Below, piece after piece: positions 12,778-57,372 of a stretch of 64,000 bases of DNA. The notes under the pieces were generated by a model that worked only from the letters and a program-made list of their open reading frames with translations, searched no databases and was not told where the DNA came from. Both the position numbers and the translations under genes were made by a program. How positions within the stretch are numbered: position 1 is the first letter of the stretch; every line of letters starts with the position of its first letter. The stretch lies in assembly GCA_017542425.1 (NCBI GenBank), contig JAFXXH010000004.1:1-64000 (forward strand), read 5' to 3'. The DNA is from Oscillospiraceae bacterium. Lineage in GTDB: Bacteria; Bacillota; Clostridia; Oscillospirales; Oscillospiraceae.

Positions 12778-14616
12778 TCAGCCGGTGGTCACCACGGCGG
12801 TATTGGTCGCCGCGTCATAGCCCACCTGGAAGCCCAGGGCTTCGCCCATGTCCCGGAGCTTGAAGAAGTTGTTCCCCGCCAGGTTGTACGCGGCCAGGTC
12901 GGAGCGCACCGCGCCGTTGATCACAATGGTCTGGGGGGAGCGCACGGCGGTGGCAGAGCGGTCCGCGCCGATGACAAGCTCACTGCCGTTGGCTGTGTAG
13001 GGCTGGCCGGACACCAGGCGGGCGGCGTTGGCGGCGGCGTCCCACTCCACGGAGAACTGGGCGGAGGTGCCGTTCAGCAGGAACGCGATGTCCCGCAGCT
13101 TGAAGTAGTTGAAGCCGTCGATGTTGTATTTCTCCACACTCCGGCTTACGCCGTTGACGGTCAGGTTCTGGGGGGAGGGGACGACGACGGGAGCGGGGAT
13201 CACATAGTGGATGGTGGCGTCCAATAACCTGTCGTTGGTCGAACGGGAAACCTCTATGGCGTTCCATTCCTGCTCTGTACCGATGAAATACACGTCTGAC
13301 AGTTTGGAGCAGAAAAAGAAGGCCTCATCGCCGATGCTTTTCACGCTGTTCGGGATGGTCACCTTTGTCAGGCTGTCGCAGTTGCGGAAGGCTCCCCAGC
13401 CGATGCTGGTTACGCCGTTCGGGATCGTCACGCTCGTCAGGGCGTCGCAGTGGATGAAGGCAGCGTGGCCGATGCTGGTCACATTGTCGGGAATTGTGAC
13501 CTTTGCTTGGTTTCTATGACATTGCAGCAAAATATGATTGACAATGGTAAAATCGCCCTGGCTCCGGTTCCAAGGGGTCTGATCGAAGGGAAACAATCCA
13601 AAACTGGTCACGCTGTTCGGAATGGACACGCTCGTCAGGCTGCTGCATCGGTAGAAGGCAGCGCTGCCGATGCTGGTGACGCTGCTCGGGATGGTCACGC
13701 TTGTCAGGTTGCTGCATTCGTAGAAGGCAGAATCGCCGATGTCGGTGACGCTGTCCGGGATGAACACGCTCGTCAGGCTGTCGCAGTCGGAGAAGGCAGA
13801 ATCGCCAATGCTGGTCACGCTGCTAGGGATTGTGACATTTGTTTCATGTCCGTTATACCGCAGCAAGATATGGTTGACGATGGCAAAATGGCCAAAGCTC
13901 AGGATCCAGGGGGTATCCTCGAAGGCAGAGCCGCCGATGCTGGTCACGCTGCGCGGGACGGTCACGCTCGTCAGCTTGGTGCAGCAGTCGAAGGCCCGGT
14001 TGCCGATGCTGGTGACGCCGTCTGGGATGGACACGCTCGTCAGGCTGCTGCATTTGTAGAAGGCAGAATCGCCGATGCTGGTGACGCTGCTGGGGAGGGA
14101 CACACTCACCAGGCTGCTGCAGCGTGCAAAGACATTGTTGCCGATGCTGGTGACATTGTATGAAAATCTCACACTCGTCAGGCTGCTGCAGCTGCTGAAA
14201 GCATCGCCGCCGATGCTGGTGACGCTGTCCGGGATCGTCAGGCTCGTCAGGCTGCTGCAGCGGGAGAAGGCAAATTCGCCGATGCTGGCGACGCTGTTCG
14301 GGATGGACACACTTGTCAGGCTGCTGCAGTAGTCGAAGGCCCAGTCGCCGATGCTGGTCACACCGGAACGGATTTCAACTGTTTTGACGGAACTGCGGTT
14401 TTCGAACCAGGGAGGATTGGAAGGGAGACGATAATCCGCCATCTTCCCAGTCCCGCTGATCACCAGCGTCCCCGCACTGTCCAAAGTCCAGGTCAGATTC
14501 TTCCCGCAGGTCCCGCTGTTCACGATCTCCGCAGCCCACACGGTTCCCGGCAGGAGCGCCGCACAGAGGAGCAGGCAGAGGGCCAGGTTCAGCACACGCT
14601 TGCAGGTCTGTTTCAT
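12778..14616 (-). CDS. BspA-like leucine-rich-repeat surface protein 1 with stalk domain
   Basis: A 612-residue secreted protein. The signal peptide (MKQTCKRVLNLALCLLL ... WAA) is followed by a short module with TWTLDSAGTLVISGTG, then about 15 LRR_5 repeats of 23 residues (pattern TSIGDSAFxxCSSLTSVxIP). At the C-terminus (about 490-612) lies a copper-amine-oxidase-N-like stalk domain with two FKLRDI/FKLRDM halves. No LPXTG or membrane anchor is seen. Such proteins are exported adhesins or host/microbe contact proteins in gut Firmicutes; that role is inference. The start has a perfect AAGGAGG. The gene is bracketed by repeat arrays A and B. Confidence 0.88.
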   Translation of the reverse strand: MKQTCKRVLNLALCLLLCAALLPGTVWAAEIVNSGTCGKNLTWTLDSAGTLVISGTGKMADYRLPSNPPWFENRSSVKTVEIRSGVTSIGDWAFDYCSSLTSVSIPNSVASIGEFAFSRCSSLTSLTIPDSVTSIGGDAFSSCSSLTSVRFSYNVTSIGNNVFARCSSLVSVSLPSSVTSIGDSAFYKCSSLTSVSIPDGVTSIGNRAFDCCTKLTSVTVPRSVTSIGGSAFEDTPWILSFGHFAIVNHILLRYNGHETNVTIPSSVTSIGDSAFSDCDSLTSVFIPDSVTDIGDSAFYECSNLTSVTIPSSVTSIGSAAFYRCSSLTSVSIPNSVTSFGLFPFDQTPWNRSQGDFTIVNHILLQCHRNQAKVTIPDNVTSIGHAAFIHCDALTSVTIPNGVTSIGWGAFRNCDSLTKVTIPNSVKSIGDEAFFFCSKLSDVYFIGTEQEWNAIEVSRSTNDRLLDATIHYVIPAPVVVPSPQNLTVNGVSRSVEKYNIDGFNYFKLRDIAFLLNGTSAQFSVEWDAAANAARLVSGQPYTANGSELVIGADRSATAVRSPQTIVINGAVRSDLAAYNLAGNNFFKLRDMGEALGFQVGYDAATNTAVVTTG

Positions 14617-14784
14617 TTCGTTTTCCTCCTTTTTGTTTGTATGACCTTGCAGACCGAAGCCCACGGACAATGCTGCGCCCCGCCAACGGGCCATGACCGG
14701 AAACACAAACAGCGGCGTCAAGTGTTTCTTGCGAAAAACACGCAACATCGCCGGAGATCAAAGAAACGCACAAGCGGATGCACC

Positions 14785-14824
14785 AAAAACACCCGGTCTC
14801 CTAAAAGGGAGGATATGCGGGTGT
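14785..14824 (-). terminator. Terminator-like hairpin in the LRR1 leader
   Basis: On the minus strand ACACCCG pairs with CGGGTGT around an inner TCCTCCC/AGGAGA region and is followed by GTTTTTGG. It lies between the LRR1 promoter and the start codon, about 170 bases before the ATG, so it could attenuate transcription. Confidence 0.5.
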
Positions 14825-14941
14825 CATGGGGATACGGCGCAGGCTTTGGTTCTGCTGTGATGAGCGGGTTGGAGACTTTGCGCAGGGGGGATGATGGGCG
14901 GGAATCCGCCAGTCCTGCTGCGGATTGCGCTTCCTTTTTTC

Positions 14942-14970
14942 ATTTTACCCCTGTTTTCCAAAAGTTGCAA
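14942..14970 (-). promoter_or_regulatory. Promoter of LRR protein 1
   Basis: TTGCAA (14965-14970) and TAAAAT (14942-14947) on the minus strand, 17 bases apart. It gives a leader of about 320 nt. The same unusual TTGCAA -35 box heads the other two LRR genes. Confidence 0.65.
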
Positions 14971-27034: not shown

Positions 27035-27390
27035 TTGCAATTTGCTTTTTTTCTAGGTATAATCGTACTAAGCCGAAACGCAAAGGCGGGCAGGCCCTGG
27101 GGCGCGCCAACACCCCAAGGCCCTGTGAAGAGTAACATACCTACTCAGCACAACGAATTGAATCATCCGCGCCACGCCCTTATTATACCCGTTTCCCTCC
27201 CCCATTGCAAGGGGAGAGCGTGAGACGTGTCTTGTGCTGCGCTTTGATTTTTCAAAACGGTGTTGAGTGACTTTCCTTACTCAACGCCGTTTTTGCGTCT
27301 TCGGCGGGCTTTGGCGGGGCGGGCGCTGCGGCGTCCGCTCCAAAGCCCGCCGAAGAAACGGCAAAAATCAAAGAAGGAGCGTGGACAAAG
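27035..27390 (+). promoter_or_regulatory. Tandem promoters and structured attenuator leader of LRR2
   Basis: P1 is TTGCAA (27035-27040)-17-TATAAT (27058-27063). P2 is TTGAAT (27158-27163)-17-TATTAT (27181-27186). Downstream of P1 the RNA has AAGCCGAAACGCAAAGGC, a long stem (27093-27122) and a GAGTA/TACTC hairpin. A CTCCCC/GGGGAG hairpin follows P2. At 27254-27294 lies an intrinsic terminator (AAAACGGTGTTGAGT paired with ACTCAACGCCGTTTTT), then a large TTCGGCGGGCTTTGG/CCAAAGCCCGCCGAA stem (27300-27354) before the ribosome binding site. The same leader, with compensatory changes in the stem, precedes LRR3. It matches no riboswitch class I could name. Confidence 0.75.
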
Positions 27391-29457
27391 GTGAAAAAAG
27401 TATGGGCCGTTCTCCTGGCGGCGGCGCTGCTGCTGGCGCTGGCGGCGCCCGCCGTGGCGGCGGACACCGTGGCCAGCGGGGCCTGCGGCGATGACCTGAC
27501 CTGGACATTGGACAGCGAGGGGAAACTGACCATCAGCGGAACGGGTGAGATGTGGGATTTTGCGTTTATTGGCGCGATGGGAGAGAACATTATCCGTGCT
27601 CCGTGGAATTCGTGGTATTTCGAGAATTCCTACCCCAACCCAACAGCGGAGATCCAACCCGGGGTGACAAGCGTGGGAGATTATGCGTTCGAATACCCTT
27701 TTACAAGCGTCACAATTCCGGCCAGCGTGACGCGCATCGGAGTGGGGGCGTTCTCCGGGACGATGAACATCCAGGTGGCCAGCGGAAATCCAACCTATTC
27801 TGATGTGGACGGTATCCTGTTCAGCCGGGACGGAACGGTGCTGTATGCGTATCCGGGCGGAAGAGACGCGGATGCGTATACGGTCCCGGACGGCGTCACG
27901 AGCATTGGGGACCGTGCGTTCTCTGCCTGCAGGGGCCTTCGGAGCGTTACGATTCCGGACTGTGTGACGAGCATCGGGGACTACGCATTCTATTGGTGTT
28001 GGAGCCTCACTGATATGGTGTTCCCAAACAGCGTGACGGGCATCGGGGACTATACATTCTGTGCCTGCAGCAATTTGGCGAGCATCACTATACCGGACAG
28101 TGTGGAAAGCATCGGAGGCAGTGCATTCGCTGCCTGCGAATATTTGGAGAACATTCATGTCACAAATGACAATCCGTTTTTCTCAGAACAGAATGGGATT
28201 CTGTTCAGCCGGGACGCTGCGGTAATATATTGTTACCCGAATGGAAAAGAAGCAGAAGGATATACAATACCAGAAACTGTGAAAAGCATTGGGGACGGTG
28301 CGTTCTCTGGCTGCCAGAATCTGACAAGTATTATGATTCCGGACAGCGTGACGAGCATTGGAGACGATGCGTTCTTTAACTGTTACAACCTGACAAGCAT
28401 TACCATACCCGATGGTGTGACAAGAATTGGATGCCGTGCGTTCTATTGGTGCAGTAGCTTGACGAGCGTGACGATTCCGGACAGCGTGACAAGCATCGGC
28501 GAAGAGGCCTTCTCCGGCTGCGGCCTGACGAGCGTGACAATCCCGAACAGCGTGACGAGCATTGGGGACTATGCGTTTTATTGGTGTAGCAGACTAACGA
28601 GTATCACGATACCGGACAGTGTGACGAGCATTGGGGACTATGCGTTCGCTAACTGTGGTTGTTTGGAGGACATTTATGTCGCAAACAGCAATCAGTTTTT
28701 TTCAGATTTGGATGGCGTTCTGTTCAGCTGGGACGCAACAGTAATATACTGTTATCCGGCGGGGAAAGATGCAGAAGTGTATACAATACCAGACACAGTG
28801 ACAAGCATTGGAAATAGTGCATTCTATAGGTGCTACTTGGAGAGCATTACAATACCAGACGGTGTGACGAACATCGGAGACAGTGCATTCTCTTGTAGCA
28901 GCAGCCTGACGAGTGTTACGATTCCAAGCGGCGTGACGAGCATCGGAGACAGAACATTCTATGGGTGCTACAATTTGACGAGCGTTTCGATCCCGGAGAG
29001 CGTGACGAGTATTGGAGCCTTGGCGTTCATTCTTTATGAGGGATACTATGAGGGATACCGCCTGACCGATGTCTACTACGGCGGTACGCAGCAGCAGTGG
29101 GACGCCATTTCCATTGCGACTGGCAACGACGAGCTTCTCAACGCTACCATCCACTTTTTGGGTAACGCATCGGATGCTCCGATTGGTCCGGCAGAAATCT
29201 GTGGAACGGGAGACAGCCTAGAGGCGTGGGTTTTGCTGTCTGCCCCGGAGGACAGCGACATGACTGTGTACGGGGCGTACTATGCTGTGGATGGGCGCTT
29301 GCTTGGCTTGACCAGAGTGTCTGTTCCTGCGAGCACAAACACCATGACGTCCTTTTCTTTTGCTGACGGCACAAGTCTCTCCATCTTTGCTACAGACGAA
29401 CGTTCCGGCGCACCGCTCTGCGACAGCGTAACGATCCTTCGCCCCGGCGAAACCTGA
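27391..29457 (+). CDS. BspA-like leucine-rich-repeat surface protein 2
   Basis: A 688-residue secreted protein beginning at a GTG codon (MKKVWAVLLAAALLLALAAP, cleavage after AVAA). It opens with the same TWTLDSEGKLTISGTG module as LRR1, followed by roughly 20 LRR_5 repeats interrupted by three short insert units (for example DVDGILFSRDGTVLYAYPGG), and a C-terminal region from about 600 (EAWVLLSAPEDSDMTVYGAY) that resembles a beta-sandwich linker domain of surface proteins. No stalk domain or sorting signal. The coding DNA is visibly less GC-rich than its neighbours. Likely adhesin or environmental-contact protein (inference). Confidence 0.86.
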   Translation: MKKVWAVLLAAALLLALAAPAVAADTVASGACGDDLTWTLDSEGKLTISGTGEMWDFAFIGAMGENIIRAPWNSWYFENSYPNPTAEIQPGVTSVGDYAFEYPFTSVTIPASVTRIGVGAFSGTMNIQVASGNPTYSDVDGILFSRDGTVLYAYPGGRDADAYTVPDGVTSIGDRAFSACRGLRSVTIPDCVTSIGDYAFYWCWSLTDMVFPNSVTGIGDYTFCACSNLASITIPDSVESIGGSAFAACEYLENIHVTNDNPFFSEQNGILFSRDAAVIYCYPNGKEAEGYTIPETVKSIGDGAFSGCQNLTSIMIPDSVTSIGDDAFFNCYNLTSITIPDGVTRIGCRAFYWCSSLTSVTIPDSVTSIGEEAFSGCGLTSVTIPNSVTSIGDYAFYWCSRLTSITIPDSVTSIGDYAFANCGCLEDIYVANSNQFFSDLDGVLFSWDATVIYCYPAGKDAEVYTIPDTVTSIGNSAFYRCYLESITIPDGVTNIGDSAFSCSSSLTSVTIPSGVTSIGDRTFYGCYNLTSVSIPESVTSIGALAFILYEGYYEGYRLTDVYYGGTQQQWDAISIATGNDELLNATIHFLGNASDAPIGPAEICGTGDSLEAWVLLSAPEDSDMTVYGAYYAVDGRLLGLTRVSVPASTNTMTSFSFADGTSLSIFATDERSGAPLCDSVTILRPGET

Positions 29458-39248: not shown

Positions 39249-40925
39249 TCAGTCCGTCGTCACCACGGCGGTGTTGGTCGCTTCGTCATAGTCCACCTGG
39301 AAGCCCAAAGCCTCGCCCAGATCCCGGAGCTTGAAGAAGTTGTTGCCGCCGAGGTTGAAGACAGAGATGCGGGGAGAATAGTAGTTGATCTCAATGGTCT
39401 GCGGAGAGCGCACGGCGGTGGCAGAGCGGTCCGCGCCGATGACCAGTTCGCTGCCGTTGGCCTCATAGGATCTGCCGGAATAAATGCCGACGGAGTTGGA
39501 GTCAGCGTTCCAGTATACGGCAAACTGCGCAGAGGTACCATTCAATAGATATGCGATGTCCCGCAACTTGAAATAGTTTTCTCCATCAATATTGTACTTC
39601 TCCACATCTTTCAGTTCGCCATTTACGGAAAGCTTCTGCGGCGAACGCTGCACCACGGGATCTTTCGGCCCGTCGCTGTTATAATGGAACAAGGGAGCAT
39701 CTATGCTGTTATCAAGGCCCCCATGACTGTCATCCGCGAACGAGATCTTCTCCCAATCTTCGCTGCTTCCGCCATAATACACGTCCTGCACCGGGCCTTC
39801 ATACATTGCCAGGTCTCCGATGCGCTTTACACTGAGCGGAATTGTTATACTTTTGATCCCGGCATCATAGAACATCCCGTTTCCGATATGCTCTACACCT
39901 TCTTTGATCGTTACGCTTTGCAGGCTGCGGCAGATAGAAAATGCCCCCTCTCCTATGCTTTTTACGCTACCGGGAATCGTTACGCTTTGCAAGCTGTAGC
40001 AGTAAGAAAATGCATAATCTCCAATGCTTGTCACGCTGTCGGGAATCGTGACGCTTTGCAGGCTGTAGCAGGAAGAAAATGCACTATCTCCAATGCTTGT
40101 CACGCTGTCGGGAATCGTGACGCTTTGCAGGCTGTCACAGGAAGAAAATGCACTATCTCCGATGCTCGTTACGCCCTTCGGGATTACTACGTCACTTTCG
40201 TCGCCTTGATATTTTACAAGAATGTGGTTGATAATAGCGCAGTCCCCTAACGATTGCAACCATGGGGTATAAGAAAACGCATCCTCTCCGATTTTCTTCA
40301 AACTGGAGGGAACGGAAACCTGCTCCAAGCTGCTTTGTCCTTGAAAGGCGTTCTTACCGATATAGGTCACACCTTCGGGAATCGATACACTGGCAAATTC
40401 GCTTTTCGTCTCGTATCTGTCGCAGGCGCCGTCGGCAATGACTGTCACGCCCTTGGGAATCACCACGTTCTCTACCCATGTCTCACCCTGCGGATGCCGA
40501 TACCGAAGCAGGACGCGATTGGCGACGGCAACGTCTCCCAGACGATCGAGCCATGGGGTGGAGTCAAATGCATCCTCGCCCACCGCTTCAACACTGTCCG
40601 GAATGTTTACGCTGGTCAGACTGGTACATCCCGCAAAGGCGTAATCTCCGATCGTTGTCACGCCGTCCGGGATTGTCACGCTGGTCAGGTCGGTACATCC
40701 CTGGAACACACCATAACTAATGCTCGTCACTTCATTCGGGATCACGACGGTACCGCCAGCGCCCGAATACGAAAACAATGTACCGGATTCGCTGATCGTC
40801 ATCGTCCCATCCTCAGTTGTGTGCGTTTTTGCCGGCGGGGGATTGTAACCCCAGTCCGCCATCGCCGGCAGCGTCAGCGCCAGCAGCAGCGCCGCCGCCA
40901 AAAGAACTGCCCATACTTTTTTCAC
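39249..40925 (-). CDS. BspA-like leucine-rich-repeat surface protein 3 with stalk domain
   Basis: A 558-residue secreted protein with a GTG start. Its signal peptide (MKKVWAVLLAAALLLALTLP) and leader are near copies of LRR2's. About 12 LRR_5 repeats follow, three of them replaced by longer variants (for example TPWLDRLGDVAVANRVLLRY). The last about 130 residues are a stalk domain nearly identical to that of LRR1 (NGSELVIGADRSATAVRSPQ). It thus combines the LRR2 front with the LRR1 back. The LRR part is clearly less GC-rich than surrounding genes. No sorting signal. Confidence 0.87.
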   Translation of the reverse strand: MKKVWAVLLAAALLLALTLPAMADWGYNPPPAKTHTTEDGTMTISESGTLFSYSGAGGTVVIPNEVTSISYGVFQGCTDLTSVTIPDGVTTIGDYAFAGCTSLTSVNIPDSVEAVGEDAFDSTPWLDRLGDVAVANRVLLRYRHPQGETWVENVVIPKGVTVIADGACDRYETKSEFASVSIPEGVTYIGKNAFQGQSSLEQVSVPSSLKKIGEDAFSYTPWLQSLGDCAIINHILVKYQGDESDVVIPKGVTSIGDSAFSSCDSLQSVTIPDSVTSIGDSAFSSCYSLQSVTIPDSVTSIGDYAFSYCYSLQSVTIPGSVKSIGEGAFSICRSLQSVTIKEGVEHIGNGMFYDAGIKSITIPLSVKRIGDLAMYEGPVQDVYYGGSSEDWEKISFADDSHGGLDNSIDAPLFHYNSDGPKDPVVQRSPQKLSVNGELKDVEKYNIDGENYFKLRDIAYLLNGTSAQFAVYWNADSNSVGIYSGRSYEANGSELVIGADRSATAVRSPQTIEINYYSPRISVFNLGGNNFFKLRDLGEALGFQVDYDEATNTAVVTTD

Positions 40926-41282
40926 TTCTGTCCACGCTCCTTCTTTGATTTTGCCGCTGCTCCGGCGGGCTTGGGAGCAGACGCCGCAGCGCCCGCCCCG
41001 CCAAAGCCCGCCGAAGACGCAAAAACGGCGTTGAGTAAGGGAAAGTTACTCAACACCGTTTTGAAAAATCAAAGCGCAGCACAAGATGCGTTTCGCACGC
41101 TCCCCTTGAAATGGGGAGGGGAAACGGGTATAATAAGGGCGTGGCGCGGATGATTCAATTCGTTGTGCTGAGTAGGTGCGATACTCTTCACAGGGCCGCG
41201 GGGTGCTGGTAACACCCTGCGGCCTGCCCGCCTTTGCGTTTCGGCTTGCTTTGATTATATCGAATCTGGAGCCGGATTGCAA
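40926..41282 (-). promoter_or_regulatory. Tandem promoters and structured attenuator leader of LRR3
   Basis: The inverted partner of the LRR2 leader. P1 is TTGCAA (41277-41282)-17-TATAAT (41254-41259), with a different spacer sequence from LRR2. The long stem (41194-41224) has GGCCGC paired with GCGGCC where LRR2 has other bases, so pairing is kept while sequence changes. P2, the CTCCCC/GGGGAG hairpin and the terminator (41020-41062, AAAACGGTGTTGAGT with ACTCAACGCCGTTTTT) are conserved. The second large GC stem before the start codon is weaker than in LRR2. Confidence 0.75.
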
Positions 41283-57164: not shown

Positions 57165-57181
57165 TCCTAAAAATTGAATCA

Positions 57182-57298
57182 AGCTTCAGGGCGGGGTGCA
57201 AGTCCCCACCGGCGGTATAGCCCGCGAGCGCGCGCAGGAATGCGGCGTTGATTCGGTGAGAGTCCGAAGCCGACCGTGACAGTCGGGATGGAAGAAGC
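57182..57298 (+). ncRNA. FMN riboswitch (RFN element)
   Basis: All conserved blocks are present in order: CTTCAGGGCGGGGTGCAAGT, CCCCACCGGCGGTATAGCCC, GCGAGCGC, TTGATTCGGTGAGAGTCCG, AAGCCGACCGTGACAGTC and GGATGGAAGAAG closing helix P1. FMN binding would favour the terminator downstream and shut the operon off. Confidence 0.97.
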
Positions 57299-57372
57299 GG
57301 TATTGTTTGGCATCGCCATGCGCGGCGGGGGCGTCTATGCTCCCCTGTTTTGTCGCATTTTGCGGTCCGCTG

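Follow-up and report, generated by a model that had tools for sequence, protein, structure and literature searches.

Antisense transcription attenuation is known mainly from plasmids, and its best-known natural examples are single plasmid loci. Closest to the leaders described here are the countertranscript attenuators of plasmid copy-number control, pT181 repC/RNAI and pIP501 repR/RNAIII, in which an antisense promoter lies inside a long leader, a terminator stands just before the gene, a "pre-emptor" segment pairs with the 5′ arm of that terminator, and the antisense transcript is a small stem-loop RNA (PMC5703833). The same features can be recognized or predicted on the chromosome of an Oscillospiraceae bacterium, in leaders found in a 64,000-nucleotide stretch (contig JAFXXH010000004.1, positions 1–64,000; hereafter the window), and comparison of these leaders with their homologs makes it likely, in our judgment, that they are countertranscript-controlled transcription attenuators.

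The leader of LRR2 begins with promoter P1 (27035–27063, plus strand; TTGCAA at 27035–27040 and TATAAT at 27058–27063, 17 nt apart), just where a sequence-only reading of this DNA had placed it, and its boxes are kept while the spacers have diverged, both between the LRR2 and LRR3 copies, as that reading had noticed, and among homologs. The conserved AAGCCGAAACGCAAAGGCGGGCA segment is present in the LRR2 and LRR3 leaders, the long stem (27093–27122) differs between the copies in stem and loop with pairing kept, and a GAGTA/TACTC hairpin (27130–27146) and an intrinsic terminator (27257–27294, plus strand) ahead of the LRR2 gene are likewise there, with the same series before LRR3; this much of the earlier description holds. 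We further distinguish segment A, the 5′ end of the sense leader (27070–27091, plus strand), which is complementary to segment A′ just 3′ of the terminator (27285–27309, plus strand; terminator foot, U-tract, and at least 8 nt beyond). A second, GC-rich hairpin is seen between A′ and the ribosome-binding site (27295–27365 on the plus strand and, in the LRR3 copy, 41020–40950 on the minus strand), and its 5′ arm overlaps A′, so that A′ can pair either upstream, with A, or downstream. LRR2 itself (27391–29457, plus strand) encodes a secreted BspA-type LRR protein (Pfam LRR_5, E = 1.4e-94 for the first 456 aa).

The second copy, on the minus strand at 41025–41282 (TTGCAA 41282–41277, TATAAT 41259–41254, terminator 41059–41025), precedes LRR3 (39249–40925, minus strand; a secreted BspA-type LRR protein according to the Pfam scan), and a covariance model matches its antisense RNA at 41126–41244 on the plus strand. 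Because the LRR2 and LRR3 copies have no clear similarity upstream of P1, and because the boxes of P1 are unchanged in spite of a diverged 17-nt spacer, the two leaders are not simply the product of a recent duplication. A third, diverged copy (14710–14970, minus strand; TTGCAA 14970–14965, TAAAAT 14947–14942, terminator 14753–14710) precedes LRR1, the gene of another secreted BspA-type LRR protein (12781–14616, minus strand; Pfam LRR_5, E = 1.5e-114); its antisense element (14819–14935, plus strand) was found by covariance model R1 with 33 bits, and its antisense promoter is degenerate looking (–10 = TGTCAT) and has perhaps decayed. This copy and three further sites elsewhere in the genome had escaped the sequence-only reading, and the source genome holds six copies in all. 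The window also contains a canonical FMN riboswitch (RF00050, 103 bits; 57178–57303, plus strand), which is unrelated to the attenuator leaders.

Homologs were searched for by BLAST and then with R1. Searching related genomes with a covariance model, the check that had been suggested for the LRR2/LRR3 pair, turned up homologous leaders in about 60 of the Clostridia genomes surveyed (62 by the overall count), with covariation reaching far beyond that pair. R1 matches occur in 50 of 394 genomes of the window's order, from 29 genera, and a class-wide sample of 341 genomes gave 12 matches, 9 of them in other orders of the class. The family set comprises 106 distinct loci, including some from an Oscillibacter MAG and an Oscillospiraceae MAG; a pattern scan of genome contigs was too loose and returned mostly chance matches, of which only the few confirmed by the model were used. 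The leader is not represented in Rfam, which gave no match to the element in the window at gathering score and no credible sub-threshold match over the LRR2 or LRR3 leader. At permissive thresholds, a search of these two leaders together with 31 loci of their homologs likewise returned nothing over the element but implausible or sub-threshold matches. One weak match to Collinsella-1 RNA (RF01700; 22.8 bits, gathering score 35) lies on the antisense strand of the end of the LRR3 leader; being below threshold and absent from the 31 other family loci, it is a lead only, and we do not accept a relationship. BLAST against phages gave no match to the element, BLAST of one distant query (the L072 element) against 72,556 plasmids gave none, and two scans of viral contigs gave 0 and 1 match. 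A published set of thousands of RNA candidates from the human microbiome (PMC8040213) may contain the leader motif.

Among the 82 downstream proteins scanned, SLH domains were found in 20, BspA-type LRRs in 16, and a copper-amine-oxidase N-terminal (stalk-like) domain in 7, along with three tyrosine integrases (not always encoded by the first gene) and one TnpB. Distant members lie upstream of genes for a serine recombinase, for DUF6809-like proteins, and for homologs of the SymE toxin; these SymE homologs (Pfam E = 5e-11 and 3e-12) follow two distant loci, L254:1501–1622 and L259:1901–2024, which come from a different order of the class. The TnpB gene (IS605 OrfB/Cas12f-like) is directly 3′ of the element in L072 (248–1354, minus strand), and in L068 an N terminus appears TnpB-like by eye and has no Pfam match.

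The covarying hairpins of the leader read best as parts of an RNA from the opposite strand, a putative antisense RNA of ∼105 nt (27068–27175, minus strand) with the shape of a cloverleaf: closing stem P0′, hairpins P4′, P3′, and P2′, and a U-rich tail. P2′ corresponds to the long stem at 27093–27122 and P3′ to the GAGTA/TACTC hairpin at 27130–27146. In an alignment of the 106 sequences that was fitted to the minus-strand model and is therefore biased toward it, the minus-strand hairpins are paired in 98.3% of 2593 cells, with two-sided changes at 25 of 25 pairs, and the covariation score is 0.686, compared with 0.255 after shuffling; in a plain MAFFT alignment (A4), which was not fitted and has no such bias, the same hairpins are paired in 97.8% of cells. 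The 12 pairs of P2′ are paired in 98.7% of cells and show two-sided changes throughout. Wobble pairs on the minus strand of the 106 sequences are G·U in 280 cells and A·C in 18 (cells are not independent events, and a p-value computed from them is not to be taken at face value). In a plain alignment of 26 full elements, hairpins P2, P3, and P4 deviate from Watson-Crick pairing by A·C when read as sense RNA, that is, by G·U on the opposite strand. The terminator and the A:A′ pairing of these 26 elements deviate instead by sense-strand G·U (∼84 cells, versus 4 of A·C), and because this wobble bias is opposite in the same loci, the terminator provides a built-in control for the strand test.

Closing stem P0′ joins a conserved 5′ GYGG to CCRC just before the U-rich tail, and some of its variants covary, for example CATAG/CTATG. 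The predicted minimum free energy fold of the antisense RNA is the cloverleaf, at –50.6 kcal/mol for LRR2 (z = –3.8) and –58.8 kcal/mol for LRR3 (z = –4.1); the sense strands of the same stretches fold less well (–34.8 and –45.0 kcal/mol, respectively). Assignment of the covarying hairpins to the structure of the antisense RNA is well supported by these comparisons. The 3′ end of this RNA is uncertain because its terminator is imperfect, a U-rich tail in which 79% of loci have four or more T within 8 nt.

The antisense RNA would start from a promoter within the leader, convergent with that of the gene: minus-strand TTGCAA-17-TATAAT at 27182–27210, with ATTATA (27182–27187) as the –10 box and TTGCAA (27205–27210) as the –35 box. 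The minus-strand TATAAT stands at the end of the covariance model, and the –35 box lies outside the model yet is found in most loci: at its fixed position, at least four of six bases match TTGACA in 85% of 104 loci, as compared with 10.6% in shifted controls, and the spacing is 17 nt in 96 of the 104. The second sense promoter that had been proposed, TTGAAT-17-TATTAT, is this antisense promoter misread, since its TTGAAT is not kept in homologs and the complement is. A CTCCCC/GGGGAG hairpin that had been listed as a leader element falls inside the antisense promoter and is not conserved.

On the sense strand, an intrinsic terminator lies between leader and gene in 101 of the 106 loci (of the five without one, two are cut off by the contig end), and the duplex of its two arms (T5′:T3′) is stronger as sense RNA (–22.3 kcal/mol) than as the complement (–17.0 kcal/mol). 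The pre-emptor, made up of the 3′ strand of P3 and the three to five bases that follow (TACTCAGCAC, 27142–27151, plus strand, in the LRR2 leader), matches the terminator's 5′ arm as its complement: over 95 leaders the median pairing is 10 bp, and 98% reach 7 bp or more. Pre-emptor and terminator arm vary together in compensatory types (CUCAGCAC/GUGUUGAG, CUCAGCAC/GUGCUGGG, CCUACAC/GUGUAGG, CUCAUAC/GUAUGAG, and CCAUGCAC/GUGCAUGG), and native combinations are more stable than swapped ones (–13.5 versus –10.4 kcal/mol, p = 5e-16, in a swap test that takes no account of shared ancestry); the duplex has no strand preference (–13.5 versus –13.8 kcal/mol). P3, the competitor of the pre-emptor pairing, is weak in the sense RNA (–8.0 kcal/mol) and strong in the antisense RNA (–15.3 kcal/mol). 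For LRR2, RNAfold predicts that the pre-emptor stays paired to the terminator 5′ arm for as long as the 3′ arm is still missing, after which the terminator wins, and co-transcriptional pre-emptor pairing is predicted in 75 of 95 leaders, as against 40% with shuffled pre-emptors. The A:A′ helix covaries as well (alignment A3), its native duplex being more stable than swapped ones (–22.5 versus –14.6 kcal/mol) and its mismatches being sense-strand G·U in 24 cases and A·C in 3; since the distal half of A:A′ is reached only after the transcript would be released, this helix cannot decide termination and has no place in the attenuation scheme proposed below, and our guess is that it seals the 5′ end of the read-through mRNA. 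A leader peptide was considered and rejected, a short ORF with a Shine-Dalgarno sequence being present in only 13 of 95 leaders.

Across the loci, the convergent promoters, the cloverleaf selected on the minus strand, the terminator selected on the sense strand, the complementarity of the pre-emptor, and the orientation of the terminator toward the gene are demonstrably conserved, and from them we infer that this antisense RNA is actually made, that it pairs with the leader, and that termination follows. In the mechanism we propose, P1 would transcribe the sense leader and the convergent promoter inside it the ∼105-nt antisense RNA, which would fold into the closed cloverleaf (P0′, P4′, P3′, and P2′). 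When no antisense RNA is present, the pre-emptor would hold the terminator 5′ arm and RNA polymerase would continue into the surface-protein gene. Once antisense RNA, which overlaps the pre-emptor, pairs with the nascent leader, the pre-emptor would be captured, the terminator hairpin would form, and transcription would stop before the gene. Antisense attenuation thus conceived probably switches genes off by aborted transcription. In one leader, L033 (G036:C8), P4 has been lost along with both the terminator and the antisense promoter. This leader still has the promoter, A, P2, and P3 and runs straight into the ribosome-binding site; it is a candidate for a naturally always-on leader.

A riboswitch or protein-sensing leader, as the sequence-only reading had envisaged, would bind a metabolite or protein with the sense RNA and so choose between P3 plus terminator and the antiterminator. 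It could account for the presence of a terminator and a mutually exclusive antiterminator, for the strong conservation of leader structure, and for a leader shared by genes of varied function, as with some riboswitch classes. The conserved hairpins, however, are selected on the minus strand, where both the G·U excess and the stronger LRR2 fold are found, and no sense-strand aptamer emerges; read as sense RNA, the hairpins are interrupted by A·C mismatches and P3 has little stability, a conserved antisense promoter lies inside the leader, and no Rfam class matches. Selected RNA structure and attenuation survive from the earlier interpretation, the ligand-sensing leader does not, and we consider a sensory leader of this kind very improbable. 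Even less credence is due to an invertible promoter (phase variation), in which a recombinase would use A and A′ as its inverted repeats and, by flipping the segment between them, point the internal promoter at the gene. The internal promoter does point away from the gene, the terminator does face it, and A/A′ are covarying inverted repeats; but all 101 leaders that have a terminator have it in one orientation, the readable downstream genes are all on the same side, and the A/A′ mismatches are sense-strand G·U, as expected of RNA and not of recombination sites. Given the single orientation, we reject this explanation.

An antisense RNA that acts mainly by other means is unlikely, though it deserves more weight: it might affect translation, mRNA decay (RNase III), or trans targets, or its transcription might interfere through convergent polymerases, with the terminator serving as a constitutive damper. 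With convergent promoters ∼105–120 nt apart some interference is likely, as reported for icsA/RnaG (PMC5394118), the antisense RNA of pSK41 acts on translation (PMC5703833), and distant members of the family precede SymE, for which the antisense effect described is not attenuation. Against this, the ribosome-binding site is ∼200 nt downstream, beyond the reach of the antisense RNA, and terminator and pre-emptor are conserved together with the antisense RNA in nearly all loci.

If the leaders are such attenuators, their loops may bear on specificity. The hairpin loops diverge almost freely, even between elements with 99% identical stems, and such divergence would tend to keep every sense/antisense pair private. 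Loop identity does not differ within and between genomes (p = 0.66), and since within-genome pairs are not more diverged, we make no claim of diversifying selection between paralogs. The P2 apical loop occurs in opposite orientations (TTGCCG versus CGGCAA, etc.) in the otherwise near-identical L199 and L200 (source genome, contigs C11 and C40), and likewise in L052/L054 and L204/L066; P2 loop types across the family include TTGGCG/CGCCAA, TTGCCG/CGGCAA, and CTGCAA/TTGCAG, and U-turn (YUNR) loops are seen in some P2 loops only. It is possible, and we put it forward tentatively, that Clostridia possess a chromosome-wide, modular antisense-attenuator system in which a genome has many paralogous leaders, each paired with an antisense RNA of its own whose hypervariable, even inverted, recognition loops set private versus shared control. 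In that case, which surface proteins, toxins, or recombinases a cell expresses could be set by RNA-RNA recognition alone. More generally, the leaders would form a large chromosomal attenuator family, one with strong comparative support, that controls Clostridia surface proteins of the S-layer and LRR types and, through its distant members, recombinases and SymE toxins; it would supply a testable rule about the choice of surface genes for expression. The covariance model can be used to annotate such leaders, which may also offer natural parts for RNA attenuator design, and the strand result is a warning that structured "leaders" detected by covariation may belong to the opposite strand.

As to other described systems, the E. 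coli relative of SymE is repressed by a cis-antisense RNA (PMC5415839), in line with an antisense reading of the family. The symE/symR type I toxin-antitoxin system resembles our distant family members in that a cis-antisense RNA lies opposite the SymE gene and those members precede SymE homologs, and it differs in that the sources consulted do not present SymR as acting by transcription attenuation; we reject membership in this class because a toxin gene is downstream only in two distant loci and the window genes encode LRR proteins. The likeness to pT181, pIP501, and icsA/RnaG appears to be one of function; the single distant plasmid query, the L072 element, revealed no homology, and we do not claim descent. 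Unlike the pT181 and pIP501 attenuators, the Clostridia leaders are chromosomal, occur several per genome, and stand before surface-protein genes, their predicted antisense RNA is a closed cloverleaf, and their 5′ end can pair, as A:A′, with the stretch that follows the terminator. The icsA/RnaG locus of the Shigella virulence plasmid also has convergent promoters ∼120 nt apart and an antisense RNA that prematurely terminates the mRNA of a surface protein (PMC5394118). It is, however, a single enterobacterial plasmid locus with an antisense RNA of 450 nt, whereas the Clostridia leaders form a multi-copy family spread over ∼60 surveyed genomes.
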